Assembly (NCBI GenBank): GCA_034439475.1
Contig: JAWXAN010000018.1
Location: 1-64,000 of the forward strand
DNA from: Candidatus Zixiibacteriota bacterium
GTDB lineage: Bacteria > Zixibacteria > MSB-5A5 > GN15 > FEB-12
Length of the DNA stretch: 64,000 nucleotides
Direction of reading: 5' to 3'
Of this stretch, positions 22,590 to 34,818 are shown piece after piece. A program made the translations under genes and the position numbers. The first letter of the stretch is position 1; each line of letters begins with the position of its first letter. Under the pieces are notes generated by a model. The model saw only the letters and a program-made list of their open reading frames with translations. It was not told the origin of the DNA and did not search any database.

Positions 22590-23642
22590 CTACCCTATCA
22601 AATCCCAACTCATCGGCGTCCCTTTTTTGACAGCGTTCCTTACCCGCTTGCCAAGGAGAATGTCAAGATAGCGCGGGGGTAGACCGAAGCCCGGCCTGAC
22701 ATCGCGAAGGTTTTCGACTGTCAATATCTCCCCTTCTTTCATATCAATCGCTACATAAAGCGAACGGCGGAACTGGAGCGACTTTTTTTCCTTTGATGTT
22801 GCCCCATACGTTATTTGACCCAGGGACTGCCAAGCGCGTTCTGTTTCCACAACAAGTGATCTGAGTTCATCAGGCTCAAGTGAAAAGGCCGAGTCAACCC
22901 CTCCTTCGGCGCGGGAAAGGGTGAAGTGCTTTTCAATGACAGTCGCGCCGAGCGCCACCGATGCCACCGCAACACCTACTCCCATAGAATGATCCGATAA
23001 GCCTACCTGAACGTCGAAGAGTTCACGCATATGGGGGATCGTGTTCAGGTTTGAAGACTCTGGGTTAGCCGGATAACTGCTTGTGCATTTAAGCAATACA
23101 AGCGAATTGCATCCCGCGGAGCAAGCAGCTCGAACGGTTTCATCGAGTTCTGCAATTGTCGCCATGCCGGTTGAGATAATCATCGGTTTTCCGGTTGAGG
23201 CAATTTTTTTTATTAAAGGAATATCGGTGTTTTCAAACGATGCGACTTTGTAGCAGGGAACATTAAGCGTCTCAAGGAAGTCGACAGCGGTCACATCAAA
23301 GGGCGTGCTAAATCCGATCATCCCCCGCTCACGACATCGGTCAAAGATCGTTTTGTGCCATTCCCATGGGGTACAGGCTTGCTTATAGAGGGCAAAGAGC
23401 GAATTTCCTTTCCAGAGGCTATCAGGGTCGTCGATGCGGAATTCGCGTTCGTTTAAATCCAATGTCATCGTCTCGGCCGTATATGTCTGAATTTTGAGCG
23501 CGTGAGCGCCAGCATCGGCCGCGATATCGACAAGTTTTAGCGCCCGCTCAAGTGACTGGTTATGATTGCCGGACATCTCAGCTATAATAAATGGAGCATG
23601 CGCGGACGAAATTGAACGCGAGCCTATCTGTATCGGATTCAT
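22590..23642 (-). CDS. pseI: Pseudaminic acid synthase
   Basis: This encodes 350 residues. It condenses 6-deoxy-AltdiNAc with phosphoenolpyruvate to give pseudaminic acid. The N-terminal TIM-barrel domain contains IIAEMSGNHNQSLERAL, the PseI-type IQTYTAETMTLD, LWKGNSLFALY and GLSDHSMG. The C-terminal antifreeze-like (SAF) domain begins near RRSLYVAIDMKEGE. The LWKGNS and EWHKTIFDRC segments are characteristic of PseI rather than NeuB or LegI. The ATG at 23640-23642 forms an ATGA overlap with the pseH stop, so the 31 upstream in-frame codons are rejected. Confidence 0.93.
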   Translation of the reverse strand: MNPIQIGSRSISSAHAPFIIAEMSGNHNQSLERALKLVDIAADAGAHALKIQTYTAETMTLDLNEREFRIDDPDSLWKGNSLFALYKQACTPWEWHKTIFDRCRERGMIGFSTPFDVTAVDFLETLNVPCYKVASFENTDIPLIKKIASTGKPMIISTGMATIAELDETVRAACSAGCNSLVLLKCTSSYPANPESSNLNTIPHMRELFDVQVGLSDHSMGVGVAVASVALGATVIEKHFTLSRAEGGVDSAFSLEPDELRSLVVETERAWQSLGQITYGATSKEKKSLQFRRSLYVAIDMKEGEILTVENLRDVRPGFGLPPRYLDILLGKRVRNAVKKGTPMSWDLIG

Positions 23643-24238
23643 CGTATCTCCACTTCTGAATTGACTGTATCCGCGGAAACGGCAGAAGCTTTGGATACAA
23701 TCGATGAAAGCAATTGTTGTCGCGAAAACTGCCACTCCGAATCAAGCAAGGAAAAGAGAAAAATATCACAGAACTGTTTGTCTTTTTTGAAATGACTACG
23801 CAGAGTACCGTCATTCGTAAACCCGAGACGAGCAAACAATTTTTGGCTTGGAGTATTAAAATCCAACACCTCACCGCACACTTTCCGCAAACCACGAGTC
23901 TGAAATATGTGATCAAGCGAAGCTATGCCGAGAAGTGTTCCGGTTCCTCTGGGAAGGTCTTCAACGCCGAGATAAAAACCCCAGAGACAGGTTCCATGTG
24001 TCAAATCAATATTCTTGACTGTCGATACTCCGCACGGCTTTCCGTCCAGCTCGAATATCAGGACTTCGACCGAATTGTCGTTACTAACGATTGAGAACCA
24101 CTCATGATGTTCGGCTTCGGATATAAGTTTATAGTTGTACATTTGCGAGCGCACCCGAAGGGAGTTTCGCCACTCGCGAACCATTGGGAGGTCAGCTTTT
24201 TGAAGCGGTCTCAGACTACACTCTTTTAGTTCAGACAC
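23639..24238 (-). CDS. pseH: UDP-4-amino-4,6-dideoxy-AltNAc N-acetyltransferase (GNAT)
   Basis: This encodes 199 residues starting from GTG. It acetylates the 4-amino group of the PseC product using acetyl-CoA. It is a GNAT-fold protein: LRPLQKADLPMVREWRNSLRVRSQM at the N-terminus is typical of PseH, the PRGTGTLLG stretch corresponds to the acetyl-CoA pyrophosphate loop, and the C-terminal half has KVCGEVLDFNTPSQKLFARLG. It overlaps pseG by 8 nt and pseI by 4 nt, so pseG-pseH-pseI form a coupled block carrying three successive steps of the pathway. Confidence 0.9.
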   Translation of the reverse strand: MSELKECSLRPLQKADLPMVREWRNSLRVRSQMYNYKLISEAEHHEWFSIVSNDNSVEVLIFELDGKPCGVSTVKNIDLTHGTCLWGFYLGVEDLPRGTGTLLGIASLDHIFQTRGLRKVCGEVLDFNTPSQKLFARLGFTNDGTLRSHFKKDKQFCDIFLFSLLDSEWQFSRQQLLSSIVSKASAVSADTVNSEVEIR

Positions 24239-25349
24239 AGCTTTTCTCCATAATCAATGAGGCCACAGCCTCAGCACCAGTTTTATCATTCTCTTCAAAG
24301 AGGGACAATGCGCAAATACTCATCCGGGCTAATTTTTCGCGGCTGACTAATGCGTCATTTATTGCCTCTGCAATTGATCTCGAAGTAACCGACTCGTGCC
24401 AGCCAAGATTAATGCAGGCCCCGGTAGCCGCCACTGATTCGGTCATCTGTCTTTGATTCTCTGCCATAATTACAGTCAGCGCTGGCAGACCAAGATATGC
24501 TCTTTCCCATGTCGTGGTACCTCCTGCACATATCGACAGATCCGCATTTACCATCTTTTCTGCCATGTTTTTGATCTGGCAATGATACCTGCAACCCGGA
24601 ATTAACTCGGTTATTACTTGGATTTCGTTTCGGTGCGGGTTTGTCTCACCGACAACAACATCGACTCTAAGATCATGTCTGTTAACTTGTTTGAGCGCAT
24701 GCAGGGCTCGTGAAGTCAGGTTGTGCGGGTCAGTTCCACCGAAAAATATAAGTATTTTGTTAATATCACCTGATCGGGGTCGAATTCTTTTCTTTGCTTT
24801 TCGAAACTCGTCTCTGAGAAGCGCATATTGAGGACCAAGGAGCAGTTCACAGTCTGACGGAACAAGATATGAATAGAGCGATCTGGAATTCGGATACAAA
24901 TTCTGGTCCAAAAGAATGTTACAATCATGTGAGCGATTTGCGAGATCGTCTATTACCATGACGTTTTTGGCATGACTCCTCATGTTGACTTCCCAATCAA
25001 TATCGAGCGCATAATGATCGACAATAAGCCAGTCCACACTTCCAAATCTTTGCATAGCATCGGATGTTTGCTCGGCGTCATGCTTTGTGCTTACGCCCAA
25101 CCATTGGGCGTAAAATTTTTCAGGTACAGGAACAGGAATAGGAATAGGTGTGGTGGGCGTACTTGACTCAAGTCGGAAAACCTGAAACCCATTCAGCTCA
25201 ATCTCGGAAATGATATTTCCATTGTGCGCGCGGGATATAAAAACGACCTCGGCTTGGTTCTGCCTGAGTTGTTTGGCAAGGGTCAGGCAGCGCATAACAT
25301 GGCCTGTGCCAATTAACGTCGAAGAATCTGTTCGTATCGCAACCCGCAT
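24231..25349 (-). CDS. pseG: UDP-2,4-diacetamido-2,4,6-trideoxy-altropyranose hydrolase
   Basis: This encodes 372 residues of GT-B fold. It removes UDP from the diacetamido sugar to release the substrate of PseI. The N-terminus MRVAIRTDSSTLIGTGHVMRCLTLA contains the G-x-G-H-x-x-R catalytic His motif. WLIVDHYALD and the C-terminal CAGGTTTWERAYLGLP are also diagnostic. At about residues 65-76 there is a Pro-rich stretch (TPTTPIPIPVPVPEK) coded by a short hexamer repeat (ggaata-type on the plus strand), an insertion not expected in the family. The gene overlaps pseH by 8 nt. Confidence 0.92.
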   Translation of the reverse strand: MRVAIRTDSSTLIGTGHVMRCLTLAKQLRQNQAEVVFISRAHNGNIISEIELNGFQVFRLESSTPTTPIPIPVPVPEKFYAQWLGVSTKHDAEQTSDAMQRFGSVDWLIVDHYALDIDWEVNMRSHAKNVMVIDDLANRSHDCNILLDQNLYPNSRSLYSYLVPSDCELLLGPQYALLRDEFRKAKKRIRPRSGDINKILIFFGGTDPHNLTSRALHALKQVNRHDLRVDVVVGETNPHRNEIQVITELIPGCRYHCQIKNMAEKMVNADLSICAGGTTTWERAYLGLPALTVIMAENQRQMTESVAATGACINLGWHESVTSRSIAEAINDALVSREKLARMSICALSLFEENDKTGAEAVASLIMEKSCV

Positions 25350-25360
25350 AGTATCCTAAT

Positions 25361-26728
25361 TTAGTTAAGCCTTTTGAATCCTGATGTCGCTGGCCCGCCT
25401 ATCATGCTCGATTCGATAGTGCCAAGCTTTTGCAACTCTGCGATGTCGGCGAGTACTTCGTCAACGGCAACAAGATAATCTTTGACATGCTTTTCGGTAT
25501 GAGCATACATGGAGTAAAACGACGTCGATGCCAGAAATTCCCGCTCAAGCATCTTCTGTACAAAGAGCGCTTTAATAGAAAGTCCGAGCGAGCCTTCAAA
25601 TGAGAAATGGCTCAGGGGCGGAATTCCGCCAACATCAATGGTAATTCCGTGAGCCTGCCCTGCTTTAGTCCATCCGGCCTGAATGGCTTTGCCAATCGTC
25701 ATTAAATGTTCACCAGCATTCACTTTTTGATGCTTGCGGATTGTCGCAAGGGCCGCGGTGGGACCGATACGCTCTGACCAGTTGGTGCTTGAGATAAATG
25801 TCTTCTGCGCGGCTTGCATAATCGACGCGCGGCCAATAATTGCGGCAATGGGGTAACCGTTACCCATAGCCTTTGAAAAGACGGCCATATCAGGTGTTAC
25901 ATTCATAAGCAGATGAGCCCCGCCGGAATTCATACGAAAGCCGGCTGAAATTTCATCCATAATGAAGACCGCTCCGGTTTTGTCAGCGAGCATGCGCACA
26001 CCCTCCATAAAGCCCAAATCAGGCGGTTCATTTCGTACCGGCTCCATTATAATTGCAGCCAAATCGTTTCCATGTTCGGCAACTATTGCTTTCAGTTTCT
26101 CGATCTTGTTATATCGAAACGGCAGCGCGGTTCCGGCTAATGCTTTTGGCACACCATTCGGTTCCAATCCCGAGATCAAATGTTCACCGAGCGCGTTTTC
26201 GGTGCCGAGATTGGCCGACAAATACCAGTCATGCCATCCATGATAGCCGCAGAAGGCAACTTTGTCGCGTCCAGTTGCGGTGCGTGCGATTCGTATTGCG
26301 ATAGTAGTCGCCTCTCCCCCGGCTCGTGAGTAGCGCACCATCTCCGCCCAGGGGTGAATATCGCAGAGTAGTTCCGCCAGCTCAACTTCTTCAGGACAGT
26401 TCAGCGAAGAACTGCTCCCGTTGGCAATAGCTTTCAATACTGCAGCATCGACATCGGGATCGGCATATCCCAAAACGTTCGCTCCGATACCGCTTATACT
26501 CATATCAATATACTTATTACCATCAAGATCCCACACTTCGGCCCCTTTGGCTTTGCTGTAATAGCCGGGCCACACACCGGGCGCGAACATGTCAGGGCGC
26601 TTTGAGAGCAACTGTGTCATGCCGGGGATAAGCCGTTTGGCCTTTTCCTGCATGGCGAGGCTTAGAGGTATTTTTGTTGTCTTCGGCAGACGCAGAGTGC
26701 GCTTTTCATTCTTTGTGTCAGTCTTCAT
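25361..26728 (-). CDS. Class III aminotransferase, glutamate-1-semialdehyde aminomutase-like
   Basis: This encodes 455 residues with a PLP-dependent fold. AEVWDLDGNKYIDMSISGIG and RYSRAGGEATTIAIRIARTATGR mark the HemL-like class. FIMDEISAGFRMN provides the PLP-ring Asp, and AVFSKAMGNGYPIAAIIG contains the Schiff-base Lys. It is not the haem-pathway enzyme by context, since no hem genes are near. It lies between pseG and the cytidylyltransferase. The pathway already has its normal aminotransferase (PseC, 28429-29712), so this one probably introduces an additional amino group into a modified sugar or makes an amino-acid decoration. The precise substrate is unknown. Confidence 0.85.
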   Translation of the reverse strand: MKTDTKNEKRTLRLPKTTKIPLSLAMQEKAKRLIPGMTQLLSKRPDMFAPGVWPGYYSKAKGAEVWDLDGNKYIDMSISGIGANVLGYADPDVDAAVLKAIANGSSSSLNCPEEVELAELLCDIHPWAEMVRYSRAGGEATTIAIRIARTATGRDKVAFCGYHGWHDWYLSANLGTENALGEHLISGLEPNGVPKALAGTALPFRYNKIEKLKAIVAEHGNDLAAIIMEPVRNEPPDLGFMEGVRMLADKTGAVFIMDEISAGFRMNSGGAHLLMNVTPDMAVFSKAMGNGYPIAAIIGRASIMQAAQKTFISSTNWSERIGPTAALATIRKHQKVNAGEHLMTIGKAIQAGWTKAGQAHGITIDVGGIPPLSHFSFEGSLGLSIKALFVQKMLEREFLASTSFYSMYAHTEKHVKDYLVAVDEVLADIAELQKLGTIESSMIGGPATSGFKRLN

Positions 26729-26761
26729 GCGTATTGAACCCTTTTTATCGGTATACTATTT

Positions 26762-27517
26762 CTAAATCAGGCTGTCTTCAGTCAGTGACTTTTCGTAGCC
26801 TTCGTTCCTGTTACTTTTCGTATTGATTGTCTTCAGTTCCGGTCTTTCGTCAAGCAAGGACAAAATGTCTTGGGTGGTGAATGCAGAGTTGACCGGATAG
26901 AGAGAAGAATAGATTTCATGGATCAATTCAAAATCCTGCAAATTATCGACCGTCCATCGCAGTTGCGACAAATCGGGCGATTGCGTAAACGAGCCTATTT
27001 TGAACTTGTCCGGGTTATTATAGAAGTATGGGGTCACATGCTCCCTCTCAGATTTGAGTTTGGCCTTTTGCCAGCCTTGCTTGAGGGATGTGAACCGGAC
27101 GATCTCAACATCCAATCCATCGGGGAATGTCGGTTTGATTGTATTGCTTGAGTAATCGTAGCCGCCTTCGAGGTGGAAGCGTATTACATCGTGAATAATA
27201 TCGGGATCGCTCAAGGGGCAATCTCCGGTCAGCCGTACGACATGCGCGGGAGAACTTTGAGATGCCGCCTGATAAAACCTATCAAGGACATCATCAAGAC
27301 TTCCGCGGAAACATTTTATGCCCCTGTTATGAAGTGCGATGGTGAGTTGGTCATCGCTTGAATCAGCGCTTGTAGCAACGATGAGACCATCGAGAAGTGA
27401 CGCGCGCCGAACACGCTCAATCTGATGGAATAACATTGGTGTACCGACTATCGGTTTGAGCACTTTGCCGGGAAGACGTGTCGAGCTATAACGGGCCTGA
27501 AGTATGCCGAGTATCAT
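26762..27517 (-). CDS. pseF: SpsF-like cytidylyltransferase, likely CMP-pseudaminate synthetase
   Basis: This encodes 251 residues. It begins MILGILQARYSSTRLPGKVLKP, the nucleotide-binding signature of the SpsF/NeuA-like cytidylyltransferases, followed by VVRLTGDCPLSDPDI with the metal-binding Asp residues. The sequence belongs to the SpsF branch rather than the Campylobacter PseF branch. As the only nucleotidyltransferase of this class beside the pse genes, it is the likely activator of pseudaminic acid to CMP-Pse. The ATG at 27515-27517 forms an ATGA overlap with the aldo/keto reductase stop; an ATG four codons earlier is less likely. Confidence 0.78.
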   Translation of the reverse strand: MILGILQARYSSTRLPGKVLKPIVGTPMLFHQIERVRRASLLDGLIVATSADSSDDQLTIALHNRGIKCFRGSLDDVLDRFYQAASQSSPAHVVRLTGDCPLSDPDIIHDVIRFHLEGGYDYSSNTIKPTFPDGLDVEIVRFTSLKQGWQKAKLKSEREHVTPYFYNNPDKFKIGSFTQSPDLSQLRWTVDNLQDFELIHEIYSSLYPVNSAFTTQDILSLLDERPELKTINTKSNRNEGYEKSLTEDSLI

Positions 27518-28419
27518 GATAGCCTCCACAACGAGGCGTTTACCATCTGCTCATCTTCGCAGGCGTACTGGGTGTAATCTATCTGTGGCGTTGTCAAAGA
27601 ATGAAAAGCAGAGTGTATCTGTTTCAATTCGTCAAGAGACGACACGCCAACAATCACACAATCGATTTCAGGGATGTTTTTGATAAAAGAAAGGGAACCT
27701 TCAAGCGATGTCATCCGGCTCTCACTGAATGCGCTTTGCAGCCGAGTTACCCTGTCTGATATGGGATTGAAATATGGATGCAATTTTGTTGGCGGGGTAA
27801 GTAATAATCCTTGTAAGAATACAGACCGGGCGTGTATCTCAATTCCACGCTTAGCCAATCGAGATAAATGTCCGGAATGAATCAGCCTTTGATCGAGGAT
27901 ATTGAGCGGAAGCTGGACGAGGTCGATATCGAAAAGCTCCACTAGCCGGTCAATTTGTTCGCCGCTGTAGACCGAAACGCCTATTTTTTTCACATGTTTG
28001 GATTCCTTGAGCGACTCGAGCAAATCAAAAACCATACTACCGTTTTGCGCAAGAAGATCATCAGCATTGTGAATAAGCAGGCCGTAGACCGAGGATTGGC
28101 CAAGCTTTTCGAGAGAGCGTTTGAAAGTCTCCGACATGAGAATTATATCGGCGACCGTAATCTCTTGTTTCTTAAGTTGAACAGTTTTCGTGACGACGCG
28201 AAAGCCATGATCGCTCGACAGGCTTCTTCCGAGCACAGTTTCACTGCCGCCGTATAGGGCGGCGGTGTCAACCGTGTTTATCTCATTCTTGCTGGCAAAG
28301 TCAACAATTGCCCGAACCTGCTGGATGCTAACTTTTCCGTGTGTGTTTGTAATTCCGTAATCCGAACCAAATTGTGCGGTTCCGAGACCGAGTGTTATTT
28401 TTTGATTGGCGTGTGTCAT
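27514..28419 (-). CDS. Aldo/keto reductase family protein
   Basis: This encodes 301 residues of TIM-barrel fold. The N-terminus LGLGTAQFGSDYGITN, the catalytic Asp/Tyr segment VDTAALYGGSE, and the His-containing VYGLLIHNADD mark the family. The C-terminal VIVGVSSLDELKQI is the NADPH-phosphate region. It is transcribed between pseC and the cytidylyltransferase, with 9 nt and a 4-nt overlap on its two sides. The usual pathway to pseudaminic acid has no step for such a reductase, so it probably acts on a derivative of the sugar or on a side chain. Similar reductases occur in other nonulosonic acid loci. Confidence 0.85.
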   Translation of the reverse strand: MTHANQKITLGLGTAQFGSDYGITNTHGKVSIQQVRAIVDFASKNEINTVDTAALYGGSETVLGRSLSSDHGFRVVTKTVQLKKQEITVADIILMSETFKRSLEKLGQSSVYGLLIHNADDLLAQNGSMVFDLLESLKESKHVKKIGVSVYSGEQIDRLVELFDIDLVQLPLNILDQRLIHSGHLSRLAKRGIEIHARSVFLQGLLLTPPTKLHPYFNPISDRVTRLQSAFSESRMTSLEGSLSFIKNIPEIDCVIVGVSSLDELKQIHSAFHSLTTPQIDYTQYACEDEQMVNASLWRLS

Positions 28420-28428
28420 AAGTTGCCC

Positions 28429-29712
28429 TCACCGTGTCATCAGCGCCTGATAAAGTTCAATGACAACTCGCTGGCAGTCTTCGTCAGTCAGATCGGGATA
28501 CATCGGCAGGCTAAGGGCACGCGAATAATACGCCTCGGCATACGGCAGGCTAAACGGTTTTGGAAAGAATTTTCGATAGTATGACTGGAGGTGTATCGGT
28601 ATGTAGTGAACTTGAGTGCCGATGCCGGATTCGTGGAGGGCATTCATCACTTTCGCGCGTGATACGCCGAACTTTTCAAAATCTATCTGGACGACAAAGA
28701 GATGATAGGCATGACGCAGACCCGGCTTTACTTTAAGCGACCAGACATTTTCTTGCGAGAACGTCTTTGCAATCAAGTCCCGATACAGCTCGGCAATCTC
28801 GTTTCTTCTAGTTACCGACCATTGAATTCTCTCAAGCTGGCTTTGTCCGAGTGTCGCCTGAATATCTGTAAGGCGGTAGTTAAATCCAAGATCTAACATC
28901 TCATAATACCAGGGATTTGTCAATCCATCTGCATTTATGGCCATCTCCTGCTGTTCGAAAGATTCGCGTTGAATGCCATGAGTGCGAAGGGCGCGGAGTT
29001 TCGCGGCGATTTTGTCTGAAGCAGTGCTCAAGGCGCCGCCTTCGCCGGTTGCAACATGCTTTACCGGATGGAATGAAAAGACAGTTATGTCGCTGTATTT
29101 GCCCGAGCCTATTTTGAGTGATTTCCCTTGATACGAATATTCTGCTCCGAGAGCGTGGCAAGCATCATCGACAATCCATGCTTCATGGGCTTTTGCCAAC
29201 TGATGAATTCGAACAATATCTACCGGCTGTCCGGCAAAATGTACGGGAACAATGGCTTTGATCGAGCGGTCATTGTCATGTTTCAAGACTGATTCGAGCG
29301 CGTTAATATCGATATTGCCGGTCGATGGTTCAATATCTACAAGACAAACGTCGGCGCCGACATATCGCGCACAATTAGCATCGGCCACAAATGTATTGGG
29401 CGTTGTGACGACCACGTCGCCCGGCCCAATATTAAGGGCAAGCATTGCAAGATGGAGCGCGGCTGTCCCATTCGAGCAGGCAATGACATTTGGAGACTTC
29501 AGATATGCCGCAAGTGATTGTTCAAAACTCTCAATTGCCGGACCCTGGGTCAGCCAATCGGAGCGGAGGACATCGACAACGGCTTGAATGTCTTTCTCGG
29601 AAATATGCTGTCTTCCGTACGGGAGAAATTTCTTACCTGAGGACTCGGTAAACCTGACTGCGGCCTTGTTCTTCTGAACTGGCGCAATTGTAGTTTCTGA
29701 TTTTGTCTTCAT
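28429..29712 (-). CDS. pseC: UDP-4-keto-6-deoxy-AltNAc aminotransferase
   Basis: This encodes 427 residues of the DegT/DnrJ/EryC1 aminotransferase family. FLPYGRQHISEKDIQAVVDVL, then LTQGPAIESFEQSLAAYL and CSNGTAALHLAMLAL are characteristic of PseC. VFSFHPVKHVATGEGGAL contains the PLP-binding Lys. It transfers the amino group from glutamate to C4 of the PseB product. The open frame extends 54 codons further, but the ATG at 29710-29712 overlaps the HisF-like stop as ATGA and has GAGGAG upstream. Confidence 0.92.
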   Translation of the reverse strand: MKTKSETTIAPVQKNKAAVRFTESSGKKFLPYGRQHISEKDIQAVVDVLRSDWLTQGPAIESFEQSLAAYLKSPNVIACSNGTAALHLAMLALNIGPGDVVVTTPNTFVADANCARYVGADVCLVDIEPSTGNIDINALESVLKHDNDRSIKAIVPVHFAGQPVDIVRIHQLAKAHEAWIVDDACHALGAEYSYQGKSLKIGSGKYSDITVFSFHPVKHVATGEGGALSTASDKIAAKLRALRTHGIQRESFEQQEMAINADGLTNPWYYEMLDLGFNYRLTDIQATLGQSQLERIQWSVTRRNEIAELYRDLIAKTFSQENVWSLKVKPGLRHAYHLFVVQIDFEKFGVSRAKVMNALHESGIGTQVHYIPIHLQSYYRKFFPKPFSLPYAEAYYSRALSLPMYPDLTDEDCQRVVIELYQALMTR

Positions 29713-30509
29713 GCGAAGGCTCCTCGATGAATACGGATTGGGATTGAGGCATTCATGATATGCGAGCGGGTCTGCATTGGATTTTGATCCAGAAAACAGA
29801 AATATGTCCCGGCTGAAACAGCATCGGCTTTGCCCTCTATGAATCCTTCTACAAAGTGGCGCGCTAAACCGCATCCCCCCGATGCAATGACCGGAATTGA
29901 AACAGCATCAACCACTTGTCGAGTCAGTTCGCAATCCAATCCTTCGCGGGTTCCATCTCTGTCAATCGAGGTCAACAATATCTCCCCGGCTCCAAGCCGG
30001 TGAGCTTCTTTCGCCCATGCCACGGCTTCCCATTTTGTTTGCTTTTTGCCTCCGCCGATCATCACCACTCGCGTGCCATCGGCTTCGAGCTTATAGTCGA
30101 TACTGACAACGACGCACTGGGCTCCGAATATCCGCGAGGACTCCGTTATCAGTTGGGGATTTTCGACCGCGGCCGTATTGATGGAGACTTTGTCTGCGCC
30201 GTTGGAAAGCAAAGTTCGAAAGTCCTCGATAGTGGTGACCCCGCCTCCAGCAGTGAGCGGCATGCAGATTTGCGCGGCTGTTGAGCGGATGATATCAACC
30301 GCGGCCAGTCTATTTTCAGTTGAGGCATCGAGGTCAATGCAGATAAGTTCGTCGGCCGATTGAGCTTCATATATTTTTGCTTGTGACATGGGATCGCCAA
30401 TTTCAATGACTTCGTTAAACTTCACCGTTGTCACCAAAACCATCTGCCTTTTCGTGCCAAGGGTAACTGATTTCATCTGCAGTTTTGGTATGAGCCGTCG
30501 TTTTAGCAT
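29709..30509 (-). CDS. HisF-like cyclase subunit of a sugar amidotransferase system
   Basis: This encodes 266 residues in a TIM barrel. It resembles HisF (ADELICIDLDASTENR, TAGGGVTTIEDFRTLLSNGADKVSIN, VVSIDYKLEADGTRVVMIGGG, SIDRDGTREGLD and VIASGGCG). In this context it is not for histidine: the partner is a HisH-like glutaminase and an N-acetyl sugar amidotransferase. In related O-antigen clusters this trio channels ammonia to convert an N-acetyl group to an acetamidino group. It is separated from the HisH-like gene by 33 nt and overlaps pseC by 4 nt. Confidence 0.85.
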   Translation of the reverse strand: MLKRRLIPKLQMKSVTLGTKRQMVLVTTVKFNEVIEIGDPMSQAKIYEAQSADELICIDLDASTENRLAAVDIIRSTAAQICMPLTAGGGVTTIEDFRTLLSNGADKVSINTAAVENPQLITESSRIFGAQCVVVSIDYKLEADGTRVVMIGGGKKQTKWEAVAWAKEAHRLGAGEILLTSIDRDGTREGLDCELTRQVVDAVSIPVIASGGCGLARHFVEGFIEGKADAVSAGTYFCFLDQNPMQTRSHIMNASIPIRIHRGAFA

Positions 30510-30542: not shown

Positions 30543-31160
30543 TCATGGTTTCCACTTCATAAAGTTCTCTAAAATGTGCAATCCGTAGTCCTGACTTTTC
30601 TCGGGATGAAACTGTGTCGCAACGATATTATCTTTACGGATAGATGCCGTGATTAGTCCGCCATAATCGCAGGTGGCTTCTACAACATCTGGATCATTGC
30701 ATTTCATCCAATATGAGTGCACAAAATAGACCTCCGGTTCAGGGGGAAGGCCTTTGAAGATCGGGCTGTTTTCTCGAGTGGAGACGTTATTCCAGCCAAT
30801 ATGCGGAATCCTAAGATTGGCCTCGCTTGTCTCAAGCATCACTACTTCAGAGTTTATCCAGCCAAGGCCGTTGTGCATGCCGCCTTCGTATCCTTTTTTT
30901 GCAAGCATCTGCATACCAACGCAAATACCAAACAGCGGCTTTTTGTAACTGAGCACAGAGTCTTCAAGAGCCTCGACTAGCCCGCTTGAATTAAGGGTAT
31001 TCATACAGTCAGCAAATGCTCCTACACCGGGCAGAATTATTCTGTCTACCTCTGAAAAATCCTCTGGTGTACGGCACATCTTGACACCGGCGCCAATACG
31101 CTCAAGCGCATTGGCGACAGACATGATGTTGCCCATACCATAATCGACAATTCCGACCAT
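30543..31160 (-). CDS. HisH-like glutamine amidotransferase subunit
   Basis: This encodes 205 residues, a class I glutaminase domain. The nucleophilic Cys is in FGICVGMQML, and the His/Glu of the triad are in TQFHPEKSQDYG. The N-terminal VGIVDYGMGNIMSVANALER is typical of HisH. It would hydrolyse glutamine and pass ammonia to the HisF-like barrel. It starts directly at the stop of the amidotransferase, with no spacer, so the three genes are one functional set. Confidence 0.9.
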   Translation of the reverse strand: MVGIVDYGMGNIMSVANALERIGAGVKMCRTPEDFSEVDRIILPGVGAFADCMNTLNSSGLVEALEDSVLSYKKPLFGICVGMQMLAKKGYEGGMHNGLGWINSEVVMLETSEANLRIPHIGWNNVSTRENSPIFKGLPPEPEVYFVHSYWMKCNDPDVVEATCDYGGLITASIRKDNIVATQFHPEKSQDYGLHILENFMKWKP

Positions 31161-32393
31161 CTATTCCTCAGCGGCGACAGGCGTCGGCTCAAGTGTTTTG
31201 GATTTTCCTTTTCGCCACCTGGTAAGCTGCACAAGTGCCTGCTCTCGGGGCATTGCCCCTTCGCGCGGCCAGTCTTCGAAATCGTGAACAAACTTGCCAT
31301 CGGTAACTTTTGAATGATCATGTTCGTACGGAGAAACAGCGTGACTAAGCACAACTTCCATAAACTCTAACTCAGTCAGGCCGACATAGGACAAGAAAAG
31401 ATCGAGACTTGGAGGGCGCCTTCCTTCGAACTCGCGCACCATCCTCATGGCCTCATCTCGTTCAAGACGGCTATTGCGAATATCGAGGGATGCCAAATGT
31501 GATGGTCTTGTGTAGCCGCGTTTGATATATTTTATATAATCGCGAACGCCCTGAACGTAGCACTCGATCTTTTCATAGGAATAACCGCCCGGCACGTTTT
31601 CGACTTCGTCGCCGCGCCAACCGAGATCATCCTGAATAATTTTGGACTGCCGCATCACATCCCAAGGAACATACGAGCCAAGGCAGACAGATCGATAATT
31701 AATTTTCCTGAGGTCCTTTAGCGCCGGATACATATACGGGCGTAATTCGCGCTCATCAATTTGTCCTTGAAGACGGACATACATATCCTGCGCAGTGATC
31801 CCTAAATTGACATAACGATTGAAACGCTTCTCATCGACTTCTTCGGGCTGGTCATAACTATAATACGAGGTGTACTCTGAGGATGGTTCACCCCAAAAAA
31901 CAAGGGGAACGTTGTAATTTATCGCGACACGCATGGGATAGGCGAAGATACCGGTGTGGCAATGCCAGCAGAAATCTCCCTTCTCGAGTAGTGCTTGAAG
32001 CATCAATTTCTGGACAACTTTCCAGTTGGGCGTGAAGGTGTGAAAATCCACCCCAAGGCGACGGATTACTTTGATGGTGTTGTCATGTAGGTTCGGGCGC
32101 AAAAAACCATGATCAAATCGCACAACGAGCGGCTTTATTTTGTATTCTTTTATAAGATAGTAAAGGGTCCAGACGCTGTCCTTGCCGCCGCTGAAAGGCA
32201 CAAGGCAATCGTAATCACCTTTGCCACGATATTCCTCAATGAGTTCGCCAAGTTCTTTTTTCTTAGCGGTCCAGTCTATCTTTTCATTTTTGTATTCGTG
32301 CTGGCGACAGATATTACACACGCCTTCTTCGTCGAACATGATTGTCTCATGCGTTTCAGGAAGGACACACTTGGTGCATCGTCTCAGTTCCAT
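31161..32393 (-). CDS. N-acetyl sugar amidotransferase (PseA/WbuX/WbpG-like)
   Basis: This encodes 410 residues of the PP-loop ATPase family. The N-terminus has zinc-type Cys pairs (CTKCVLP and CNICRQH) and the PP-loop is PFSGGKDSVWTLYYL. KGDFCWHCHTGIFAYPM and VFWGEPSSEYTSYYSYD are typical of the PseA/WbuX subfamily. It activates the acetamido group with ATP and replaces the oxygen with ammonia to give an acetamidino sugar. Beside a complete pse pathway, Pse5Ac7Am is the likely product, though another N-acetyl sugar of the repeat is possible. Confidence 0.88.
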   Translation of the reverse strand: MELRRCTKCVLPETHETIMFDEEGVCNICRQHEYKNEKIDWTAKKKELGELIEEYRGKGDYDCLVPFSGGKDSVWTLYYLIKEYKIKPLVVRFDHGFLRPNLHDNTIKVIRRLGVDFHTFTPNWKVVQKLMLQALLEKGDFCWHCHTGIFAYPMRVAINYNVPLVFWGEPSSEYTSYYSYDQPEEVDEKRFNRYVNLGITAQDMYVRLQGQIDERELRPYMYPALKDLRKINYRSVCLGSYVPWDVMRQSKIIQDDLGWRGDEVENVPGGYSYEKIECYVQGVRDYIKYIKRGYTRPSHLASLDIRNSRLERDEAMRMVREFEGRRPPSLDLFLSYVGLTELEFMEVVLSHAVSPYEHDHSKVTDGKFVHDFEDWPREGAMPREQALVQLTRWRKGKSKTLEPTPVAAEE

Positions 32394-32509: not shown

Positions 32510-33145
32510 TCACGCTTTTTTCTTCCAGTAGTCCTCTGCGCAGAGTCCCAAGATTATTCCGTCGGTCGACTTGCCGTCAATAAGATACTGGCCCTTTTGG
32601 AGACCTTCGCGGCTATAGCCGCATTTTTCGAATGAACGCGCGCTGCCTTCGTTTTCGACATAACAGCCGGCTTTGAGTTTATTGAGATTAAGCGTCTCAA
32701 ATCCGAATTGTGTGATCATTCCGATAGCCTCAGTGGCGTATCCTTTACCCCAGCAATTCTTCTCGCCAATCAGCAGACTGATATCGGCATAGCGATGGCG
32801 CCAGTTGATCGGGCCAAGCTTTATATTGCCGATATGCTCGTTTGTGTCTCTGCGGCAAATGGCAAAAAACGGCTCATCACTTTTGCCGTCCATATGCGCG
32901 ACAAATTTTGAGATATTCTCAAGCGATTGAGCAACGAAGCGAGTCTCAAGGTATCGGCTTACTTCGGGATCGTTCATCCACCGATAGTAACGATCGTTGA
33001 CATCGGACTGGCGTACTTCGCGAAGGTACGACCGAACACCCATACAAATTGCGGTCTCGGTATCAGAGACAAGCGAGGCCATTCTATTTGTCGCCTCAGG
33101 GCGACTTTCGATTATGGACTTGCTTGATTCCCGATCCGATCCCAT
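32510..33145 (-). CDS. GNAT-family N-acetyltransferase (RimJ/RimL-like)
   Basis: The encoded protein is up to 211 residues long. The GNAT fold starts near YLREVRQSDVNDRYYRWMNDPE and contains the acetyl-CoA loop EKNCWGKGYATEAI, then the conserved SARSFEKCGYSREG. This N-terminal pattern is common in sugar-modifying acyltransferases of surface-glycan loci. The start is unsure, since no ribosome binding site supports the first Met and two internal Met codons at residues 22 and 35 lie closer to the domain. It lies 33 nt downstream of pseB, so an N-acyl decoration of the sugar is likely. Confidence 0.75.
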   Translation of the reverse strand: MGSDRESSKSIIESRPEATNRMASLVSDTETAICMGVRSYLREVRQSDVNDRYYRWMNDPEVSRYLETRFVAQSLENISKFVAHMDGKSDEPFFAICRRDTNEHIGNIKLGPINWRHRYADISLLIGEKNCWGKGYATEAIGMITQFGFETLNLNKLKAGCYVENEGSARSFEKCGYSREGLQKGQYLIDGKSTDGIILGLCAEDYWKKKA

Positions 33146-33178: not shown

Positions 33179-34276
33179 TCAGTTTTTATCCGTCGACACT
33201 TTTGTCAGATCACGGGTCATTTCTTTGATAGTCAGTTTTCTCTGCTCTCTCCAGCCTGTGGTCTCATCGATTTCCAGACCCACACCCAGGTGGTCGTTGA
33301 CCAAAGCGCGAATTGCATCGACTGAGAGCCATTGGGTGTTAGTGTCGCTTGCGTAACGGAAACCATCTTTGCATTCCTTGCCGCCGAATGTTTCCATATA
33401 CCGCGCCGAATCCCAAAGAGGCATGGACGGCTTAATCACAAAATATTTGTCAAATTCAAGCGTTGAAAGAGCGTCAGTTGCGGTAATCATCTCCTCATGG
33501 AGCTTTTCCCCGGGGCGTATGCCTACGAATTCATGAGCACATGCCGGCGCGACTGCCTGGGCGACATCCAAAATTCGATAACTGGGAATCTTTGGGACAA
33601 AGATTTCCCCTCCCCACATATGGGTCAGAGCATGTATAACCAGATCGACACCTTCATCGAGAGTAATATTAAATCGCGTCATGCGCGAATCGGTAATCGG
33701 AATAACTTTTTCATTTCGCTTGCTCAGAAAAAATGGGATAACACTCCCACGGCTGCCCATGACATTTCCGTATCTGACCACAGAAAACTTGATATCTCGG
33801 CTACCCTTGAAGTTATTGGCCGAAACGAAGAGTTTGTCAGAACAAAGCTTGGTAGCGCCATAGAGGTTTATAGGCGCGGCAGCCTTATCTGTGCTCAACG
33901 CCACAACTTTGTGAACATTGCGGTCGATTGCGGCTTCGATAACGTTTTGCGCCCCAATGACATTGGTCTTAATAGCTTCAAAGGGATTATATTCGCAGGC
34001 TGGGACCTGTTTGAGGGCGGCGGCATGGACTACAATATCCACACCCTCCATTGCTCTGAAAAGTCGTTCTTTATCCCGGACATCGCCAATAAAAAATCTC
34101 AACTGCGGGTAACGAGAATCGGGGAAAGCCTGATTCATCTCAAATTGTTTTAGTTCATCTCGGGAGAAGACAACAACCCGCCGCACACTCGGATATTTGG
34201 TTAAAATAGTCCGAATGAATTGTTTACCGAACGAGCCAGTTCCGCCTGTTACCAGGATTGATTTACCAGAGAGCAT
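33179..34276 (-). CDS. pseB: UDP-GlcNAc 4,6-dehydratase, C5-inverting
   Basis: This encodes about 365 residues of extended SDR fold. It performs the first step of pseudaminic acid synthesis, dehydrating UDP-GlcNAc with inversion at C5. The NADP motif is ILVTGGTGSFGKQFIRTIL. The catalytic TDKA (in ALSTDKAAAPINLYGATK) with the Asp-Lys pair and the Tyr of the YGATK motif are present, and HAAALKQVPACEYNPFEAI is diagnostic for PseB/FlaA1. The ATG at 34274-34276 is preferred over one two codons earlier because AAGGA lies seven bases before it. Confidence 0.93.
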   Translation of the reverse strand: MLSGKSILVTGGTGSFGKQFIRTILTKYPSVRRVVVFSRDELKQFEMNQAFPDSRYPQLRFFIGDVRDKERLFRAMEGVDIVVHAAALKQVPACEYNPFEAIKTNVIGAQNVIEAAIDRNVHKVVALSTDKAAAPINLYGATKLCSDKLFVSANNFKGSRDIKFSVVRYGNVMGSRGSVIPFFLSKRNEKVIPITDSRMTRFNITLDEGVDLVIHALTHMWGGEIFVPKIPSYRILDVAQAVAPACAHEFVGIRPGEKLHEEMITATDALSTLEFDKYFVIKPSMPLWDSARYMETFGGKECKDGFRYASDTNTQWLSVDAIRALVNDHLGVGLEIDETTGWREQRKLTIKEMTRDLTKVSTDKN

Positions 34277-34818
34277 TTCCATATCCTTCTATTATTAAGA
34301 ATGTAGTTTCGGATGAGATATCATCCAACAAAAAAATTTGCCGGATAATTGGGCTAAAAGCCCGTCGATTAAGGCCTAAAAGGTCGAGCTCGAAGTATTG
34401 CTCGATGAATAAGTAGACATTTTCAGACATTTGGAAGCCGCATAAGGCTTTATGGATGGTGAATATATGAAATAGAGTAGCCCCCGACACCGCGCCAACC
34501 CCAGGAAGCCCTTTTCTGTACTTTGTGCGATTCCAATCGCAAACATGATGCGTCCTTGCATCCGAATCTCCTTCTCTAATCCGAAAAAGAGATGTACAAG
34601 AACTGTGCCGGATAAATCGCACACGGGTTGACTACTGGCTAACAACGAGTTACATGGCCGGACTCGGAGAGATGTCGGTTAGAGCGAACTCTCAAAGACT
34701 GGAATTAGAAAGTCTTTCTGAGGTGAACTGAAAATAATTCCTGATACGGGAAAACGGTTATAATAATCATAAGTGATCAGACAATCAAATCTGCGGAAAT
34801 AATCTAAGGAAATTGGAG
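34277..34818. other. Intergenic region between the pse and rml segments
   Basis: This is a 540-nt stretch without a recognisable gene. Short open frames on the minus strand give no known protein and have no ribosome binding site. It divides gmhA/rml from pseB, so it probably carries a promoter for the pse operon, but I see no clear -35/-10 pair and no JUMPstart-like element. Confidence 0.5.

Follow-up and report, generated by a model that had tools for sequence, protein, structure and literature searches.

A HemL-like aminotransferase and an aldo/keto reductase in a Zixibacteria pse operon as a candidate module for a triamino nonulosonic acid

Introduction

Nonulosonic acids (NulOs) coat flagella, capsules and O-antigens, and they shape what immune systems and phages see. 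The standard route to one of them, pseudaminic acid (Pse), consists of PseB, PseC, PseH, PseG, PseI and PseF; neither an aldo/keto reductase (AKR) nor a HemL-like aminotransferase is required. In this work, we analysed a pse operon that encodes both. It lies on the minus strand of a 64,000-nt stretch of DNA from a Candidatus Zixiibacteriota bacterium (assembly GCA_034439475.1, contig JAWXAN010000018.1, positions 1 to 64,000), hereafter the window. The genes of the AKR (27514..28419) and of a HemL-like class III aminotransferase of 455 residues (25361..26728) flank that of an SpsF-type cytidylyltransferase (CMT; 26762..27529). We lean towards the reading that the three proteins make a triamino NulO, in which the AKR would generate a ketone and the HemL-like enzyme would aminate it, with C8 as the favoured position.

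In Acinetobacter baumannii prophages, EpaA (a fusion of a CMT and an AKR) and EpaB, a short-chain dehydrogenase/reductase (SDR), convert Pse to 8-epi-Pse, as established by NMR (PMC12053666; this and the papers below are cited from parts of their text). By domain description, not by sequence, the window proteins are alike in that a CTP_transf_3 protein and an AKR would act together on Pse; the two are fused in EpaA and in one relative of our locus (L037), and adjacent, with a 4-nt overlap, in the window. The partner differs, being an SDR in the prophages and a class III aminotransferase here. A Vibrio cluster, in which an SpsF-AKR protein was proposed to replace NeuA and is followed by a dehydrogenase, looks like the EpaA/EpaB arrangement (PMC7371886). 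Bacillus subtilis spsF belongs genetically to a CMP-legionaminic acid (CMP-Leg) pathway (PMC7439481). As for the sugar, the O-antigen of Flexibacter maritimus contains 8-amino-3,5,7,8,9-pentadeoxynonulosonic acid (PMC3210612, PMC4052302).

The HemL-like/AKR pair has been drawn in the group I flagellin islands of Aeromonas, with the gene order in print and no role given in the parts cited; both genes are present in subgroups IA-IE and absent from IF and IG (PMC7874193). We liken these islands to the window by the published drawing, not by sequence. Each of the 12 gene types in our operon is also listed for the O-antigen locus of Legionella pneumophila Sg6/Sg12, likewise with no role given in the parts cited (PMC3694923); the order is partly different, the aminotransferase is annotated as a glutamate-1-semialdehyde aminomutase (GSAM), and the comparison is by annotation name only. 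No published function for the HemL-like gene was found among the matches listed in a literature search that left subscription papers mostly outside, and no such genes were named in the portions consulted of papers on Shewanella, Clostridium, Geobacillus and Leptospira. The original prediction, made from the DNA letters of the window, was that the two genes may form an undescribed branch making a modified NulO or an amino-acid side group. A branch making a modified NulO stands as the best reading; it is undescribed in function, but not in gene order and gene set, which the Aeromonas and Legionella papers already report.

Results and discussion

Gene order and linkage to nonulosonic acid clusters

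The 12 genes of the operon are transcribed in the order PseB, a second GNAT, WbuX, HisH, HisF/WbuZ-type, PseC, AKR, CMT, HemL-like, PseG, PseH and PseI. All five of PseB, PseC, PseG, PseH and PseI, as well as WbuX, scored over the NCBIfam equivalog cut-offs. The prediction that the AKR and the HemL-like gene sit within a pse operon that already has its own aminotransferase was therefore borne out, with the pse gene set complete around both, the CMT between them and PseC over its cut-off. The 4-nt overlap with the cytidylyltransferase, ascribed to the tightly spaced pair, holds for the AKR, as its stop codon shares ATGA with the ATG at 27517, which follows a GGAGG and probably starts the CMT. 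It does not hold for the HemL-like gene, with 33 nt between it and the CMT upstream and 11 nt between it and pseG downstream. In the best reading of this arrangement, the AKR, the SpsF-type CMT and the HemL-like enzyme would form one module added onto an otherwise complete Pse pathway.

Two samples of genomes were chosen regardless of gene context: 397 Flavobacteriaceae genomes (one draw) and 132 genomes of the window's own phylum. The former contained 10 HemL-like genes (E <= 1e-90), 10/10 of which are clustered with both a CMT and a NeuB-family gene; the draw was centred on one of the 10 genomes (G001), which had itself been found through its HemL-like gene. In the own-phylum sample, all eight HemL-like genes adjoined a CMT and PseG. 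PseI exceeded its cut-off in 33 of the 132 genomes and the AKR subfamily was present in 15, compared to 7/8 and 7/8, respectively, of the genomes with the HemL-like gene (hypergeometric 2e-4 and 4e-7, relatedness ignored). The exceptions were G466, with just weaker NeuB-type matches, and G417, in which the contig stops within the CMT. Random presence of the genes away from NulO loci, the outcome that would speak against the original prediction, occurred in neither sample.

When genome contigs were searched with the HemL-like protein, at least 588 stretches with at least 571 relatives were obtained, of which the best 80 were examined. Together with nine Flavobacteriaceae and six own-phylum loci they formed a set of 95 (the duplicate L115 was removed and the window excluded). 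A locus was considered NulO-linked if a CMT, NeuB-family or NeuA match lay on the same strand within 8 kb. Here the outcome was mixed, as 58 of the best 80 relatives were NulO-linked and 22 had no NulO gene within that range, part of them because their contigs are short. In 54 of the 95 loci, the gene is preceded by 5 kb or more of sequence and followed by 4 kb or more; 45 of these loci were NulO-linked and nine were not. In the tree, the window was placed in a set of 24 rows (SH-aLRT 99, by a quick method), with 22 of the other 23 rows NulO-linked; the remaining row (L044) is a contig of 3.2 kb. A set of six rows, which come from Verrucomicrobia, Planctomycetes and an Acidobacterium, lacked NulO genes; the contigs of two of these rows are short. 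The tree program warned of long outgroup branches, and the rows L002/L214 (which passes PRK06209) and the very long L120 are not true HemL. We conclude that the HemL-like gene and the AKR are not chance neighbours of NulO genes. Many bacteria have related operons, as do some archaea and phages.

Some relatives deviate in their composition. The planctomycete and verrucomicrobial proteins L063, L078 and L079 are 778-856 residues long owing to an N-terminal extension, which is Amidohydro_2 in L078, with no second Pfam domain in L063. Loci L064, L081 and L068 combine AKR-CMT-HemL with an RmlD-like protein and a NeuB-family gene, with no PseC match nearby, which raises the possibility that the module also acts on a NulO lacking the amino group introduced by PseC.

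Module architecture

In 52 of the 95 loci, no more than 150 nt separated a CMT gene from the HemL-like gene. Pfam confirmed CMT-HemL fusions in L005 and L098, and the AKR-CMT fusion in L037. A separate fusion, of a CMT and a NeuB-family synthase, was observed in L048 (8246-9871; 541 residues, both domains by Pfam). Within 4 kb, 44 of the 73 NulO-linked loci had an AKR, 11 had a Gfo/Idh/MocA protein, none had both and 18 had neither. This mutual exclusion corresponds to a hypergeometric probability of 1e-5, with relatedness ignored; L012 contains both proteins once the radius is widened to 8 kb.

The architecture bears on the second product named in the original prediction, an amino-acid side group, in which case both enzymes would make a small amino or hydroxy acid to be attached to N5 or N7 of the NulO. 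HemL itself has an amino acid as its natural substrate, and unusual N-acyl groups, e.g. 3-hydroxybutyryl, are common on NulOs in the literature consulted. This alternative is less favoured because the partners are fused with, or adjacent to, the CMP-NulO synthetase, and because no acyl-activating family occurred in the clusters common to at least four of the 80 loci, except for an ATP-grasp cluster (four loci). We therefore deem it unlikely.

Genomes of the window's own phylum provide a natural exchange of the partner enzymes. Out of 15 genomes with the AKR, six have a full HemL-like ORF, one has the ORF split across two frames (G486), two have it cut by the contig end (G416, G447), and two retain a remnant, described below. 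In the other four (G415, G468, G480, G481), no HemL match was found in the contig read, and the AKR is followed by a Gfo/Idh/MocA protein (4/4). An SDR is full-length in G468 and G481 and a short ORF in G480, and none was called in G415. The CMTs of these four genomes scored 173-192 on the PseF model (cut-off 205.7). The AKR is thus paired with the aminotransferase in some genomes and with other oxidoreductases in others, as one would expect of a ketone-making enzyme. In loci L121-L124, we observed Pse clusters where an AKR, a Gfo/Idh/MocA protein, an SDR and a PseF-like CMT replace the CMT and the HemL-like gene; by analogy, these are candidates for an EpaA/EpaB-like epimerase.

It could be argued from the same four genomes, which have an AKR without HemL, that the AKR acts as in 8-epimerisation and that the HemL-like enzyme has an unrelated job on the same sugar. 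In those genomes, however, other oxidoreductases occupy the place of HemL. Moreover, the Aeromonas subgroups, as published in the part cited, carry both genes or neither, and no EpaB-type SDR was found among the annotated ORFs of the window operon. Separate roles for the two enzymes consequently appear quite improbable.

Identity of the three enzymes

The HemL-like protein matched Aminotran_3 with 144.9 bits (cut-off 30.5). As hemL models are among its best named matches, a GSAM of heme synthesis located here by accident had to be considered. The score on hemL TIGR00713, however, was 201 bits, compared to the cut-off of 527.3, and that on PRK06209 (NF004856) was 255.9 bits, compared to 486. 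No protein in the genome of the window exceeded the hemL cut-off. HemB (PF00490) had no match in this genome, which is 98.72% complete, while a control search found HemB in 11 of 14 genomes. The pyridoxal phosphate (PLP) lysine, K286, is kept in 41/41 relatives and 4/4 comparison proteins. The position of Glu406 of GSAM, which we take to be an active-site residue, is occupied by Tyr in 40 of 41 relatives and by Lys in one; it is Glu in three hemL-like proteins (L117-L119). The family also has its own invariant LLSKR, GYHGW and R232. In the structure model (pLDDT 88.5), the nearest folds were GSAM, FumI, D-phenylglycine aminotransferase, PctV and GenB3, of which PctV and GenB3 are class III enzymes acting on cyclic or sugar carbonyls. 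The protein therefore resembles GSAM in the class III PLP fold (TM about 0.8 to solved GSAMs) and the catalytic lysine, and differs from it in family score, in the Tyr at Glu406 and in its own motifs. Given these differences, the lack of a HemB match and the linkage to NulO genes, we rejected the accidental heme enzyme, which is refuted as far as genomics allows and has a negligible likelihood.

A general role of the HemL-like enzyme as a stand-in for PseC was also rejected, because 46 of the 73 NulO-linked loci (47 of all 95) have a PseC match on the same strand, no more than 8 kb away. The genome of the window encodes a second HemL-like aminotransferase (L002/L214; 1351-2706 on contig C12), which scored 690.2 on PRK06209, over the cut-off. 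Its neighbours, assigned by eye, are an apparent glucose-1-phosphate cytidylyltransferase and a PIG-L deacetylase.

The AKR matched Aldo_ket_red with 95.5 bits (cut-off 24) and fell below the cut-off of KidO (NF011432; 161.6 bits, compared to 244). Its catalytic tetrad, D51, Y56, K78 and H117, is invariant in 33/33 aligned sequences, and the structure model had a pLDDT of 94.8. The AKR query had no match in the phage collection.

The CMT matched CTP_transf_3 with 108.8 bits (cut-off 22.6). It is no canonical PseF, as it scored 24 on TIGR03584, where the cut-off is 205.7. The other PF02348 matches in the genome are KdsB and IspD, both over their cut-offs, and a GlmU-like protein, and PF02348 revealed no other candidate for a CMP-NulO synthetase in the genome. 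A role of the CMT unrelated to NulOs is disfavoured on these grounds, and we propose that the SpsF-type CMT is the CMP-NulO synthetase. NeuA/PseF-like enzymes occupy its slot in L062, L072 and L121-L124.

Other genes of the operon

Upstream of the AKR, all on the minus strand, lie PseB (33179..34282; TIGR03589, 534.7 bits, cut-off 407.75), the second GNAT (32510..33145; Acetyltransf_3, 97.1 bits, cut-off 25.4), a WbuX-type N-acetyl sugar amidotransferase (31161..32393; TIGR03573, 344.1 bits, cut-off 203.2), a HisH-type glutaminase (30543..31160; TIGR01855, 243.8 bits, cut-off 105.4), a HisF/WbuZ-type protein (29709..30509) and PseC (28429..29874; TIGR03588, 488.2 bits, cut-off 423.5). The GNAT scored 44.3 on the PseH model (cut-off 93.1) and is a putative N-acyltransferase for an added amino group. 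The HisH-type glutaminase is presumably the partner of WbuX. The HisF/WbuZ-type protein scored 276.7 on WbuZ TIGR03572, slightly below the cut-off of 299.7, and 261.3 on hisF, compared to 294.55. The PseC match begins at residue 83, and translation probably starts from the ATG at 29712, which overlaps the stop codon of the HisF/WbuZ-type gene.

Downstream of the HemL-like gene, on the same strand, are PseG (24231..25349; TIGR03590, 316 bits, cut-off 153.55), PseH (23639..24238; TIGR03585, 110.5 bits, cut-off 93.1) and PseI (22590..23735; TIGR03586, 494.5 bits, cut-off 340.25). The match of PseI begins at residue 48; its true start is probably the ATG at 23642, which overlaps the PseH stop.

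Proposed chemistry

We infer the substrate, the order of steps and the position as follows. The AKR, or elsewhere the Gfo/Idh/MocA protein in the same slot, would oxidise one hydroxyl of the completed NulO or CMP-NulO to a ketone, most likely the C8 hydroxyl. The HemL-like enzyme, as an ordinary PLP transaminase, would then aminate the ketone. The product would be 8-amino-8-deoxy-pseudaminic acid (5,7,8-triamino-3,5,7,8,9-pentadeoxynonulosonic acid), to be activated by the CMT; acyl and amidino groups could be added to it by the second GNAT and WbuX/HisH/HisF. An oxidoreductase and an aminotransferase likewise exchange a sugar hydroxyl for an amino group in KdnB/KdnA (8-amino-Kdo, Shewanella) and WbpB/WbpE, although the enzyme families and sugars differ from those of our module.

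The choice of C8 is based on the EpaA/EpaB pair, which inverts C8 of Pse, and on the F. maritimus O-antigen, as far as the cited parts of those papers go: a C8 ketone followed by transamination would give a sugar of the F. maritimus 8-amino kind. The same chemistry could take place at another carbon, most plausibly C4, where a 4-keto NulO would be transaminated to a 4-amino NulO; no measurement in this work fixes the position. Among NulOs, the D-glycero-D-talo series is the C4 epimer. The O-chain of non-1 L. pneumophila, according to the part cited, differs from Leg and belongs to this series (PMC3766260), which suggests C4 chemistry in a species with these genes. On the other hand, EpaA/EpaB links the AKR-CMT pair to C8, and the literature examined contained an 8-amino NulO and no 4-amino NulO. 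Amination at C4 is thus an outside chance.

A sugar aminomutase would be another variant, in which the AKR opens a C8 ketone, the HemL-like enzyme shifts the neighbouring 7-amino group to C8 by the diamine mechanism of HemL and the AKR closes the resulting 7-ketone. This variant needs a free 7-amino group, which makes it least plausible for operons that encode PseH, such as that of the window; we regard it as highly improbable. If it were true, the route would be a redox-neutral amino shift yielding NulO isomers absent from the literature examined.

Several observations weigh against the proposed ketone formation and amination at C8. No AKR or Gfo/Idh/MocA protein was found within 4 kb in the 18 NulO-linked loci mentioned above, of which at least L097, L112, L075 and L041 are explained by distance, contig end, the other strand or a weak Gfo match. 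G448 and G449 retain the AKR and the CMT, and their HemL is reduced to ~54 C-terminal residues. Both genomes belong to one genus, and their remnants (about residues 400-454; L127 2931-3092 and L128 322-486) lie between the CMT and PseG; here the aminotransferase has been lost naturally and the AKR retained. In the 12.7 kb read of the phage contigs L131 and L132, PseB-AKR-CMT-HemL is present, and PseC and NeuB are not. Finally, the non-1 L. pneumophila O-chain is reported to be a 5-acetamidino-7-acetamido-3,5,7,9-tetradeoxy NulO with no 8-amino group in the structure as cited (PMC3766260), which may conflict with our proposal, as Sg6/Sg12 carry the genes. Because of these points, we consider the amination of a NulO hydroxyl via a ketone, as judged from the gene content, probable but not firm, and C8 as its position, by analogy, slightly favoured.

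We give no weight to the published masses of flagellin NulOs, which are 403 Da for Aeromonas hydrophila AH-1 (PMC4691044) and 376.14 Da for A. piscicola AH-3 (PMC7874193). The odd AH-1 mass fits an odd number of nitrogens, as in a glyceroylated 8-amino derivative (403.159); glycyl, seryl and amidino groups fit equally.

Phage loci and significance

Among the IMG/VR phage contigs, L132/L212 also encodes WbuX and a GNAT, and L129 has HemL, AKR, a NeuB-family protein and PseB in the stretch read. By means of such genes, a phage may alter the surface sugar of its host. Contigs L134-L138 carry another set, namely a DegT-like protein, an SDR, a short protein of the NeuB family (confirmed by Pfam in L134 only), a HemL-like protein and a CMT.

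If our proposal is true, the label "glutamate-1-semialdehyde aminomutase" on such genes would be corrected, and a third amino group would make an acidic NulO zwitterionic. The module could explain the orphan 8-amino NulO of F. maritimus and supply a gene marker for it. A modified sugar would also be predicted in Aeromonas flagellins and in the O-antigens of Legionella Sg6/Sg12. In this way, an overlooked branch of the NulO sugar family becomes testable.

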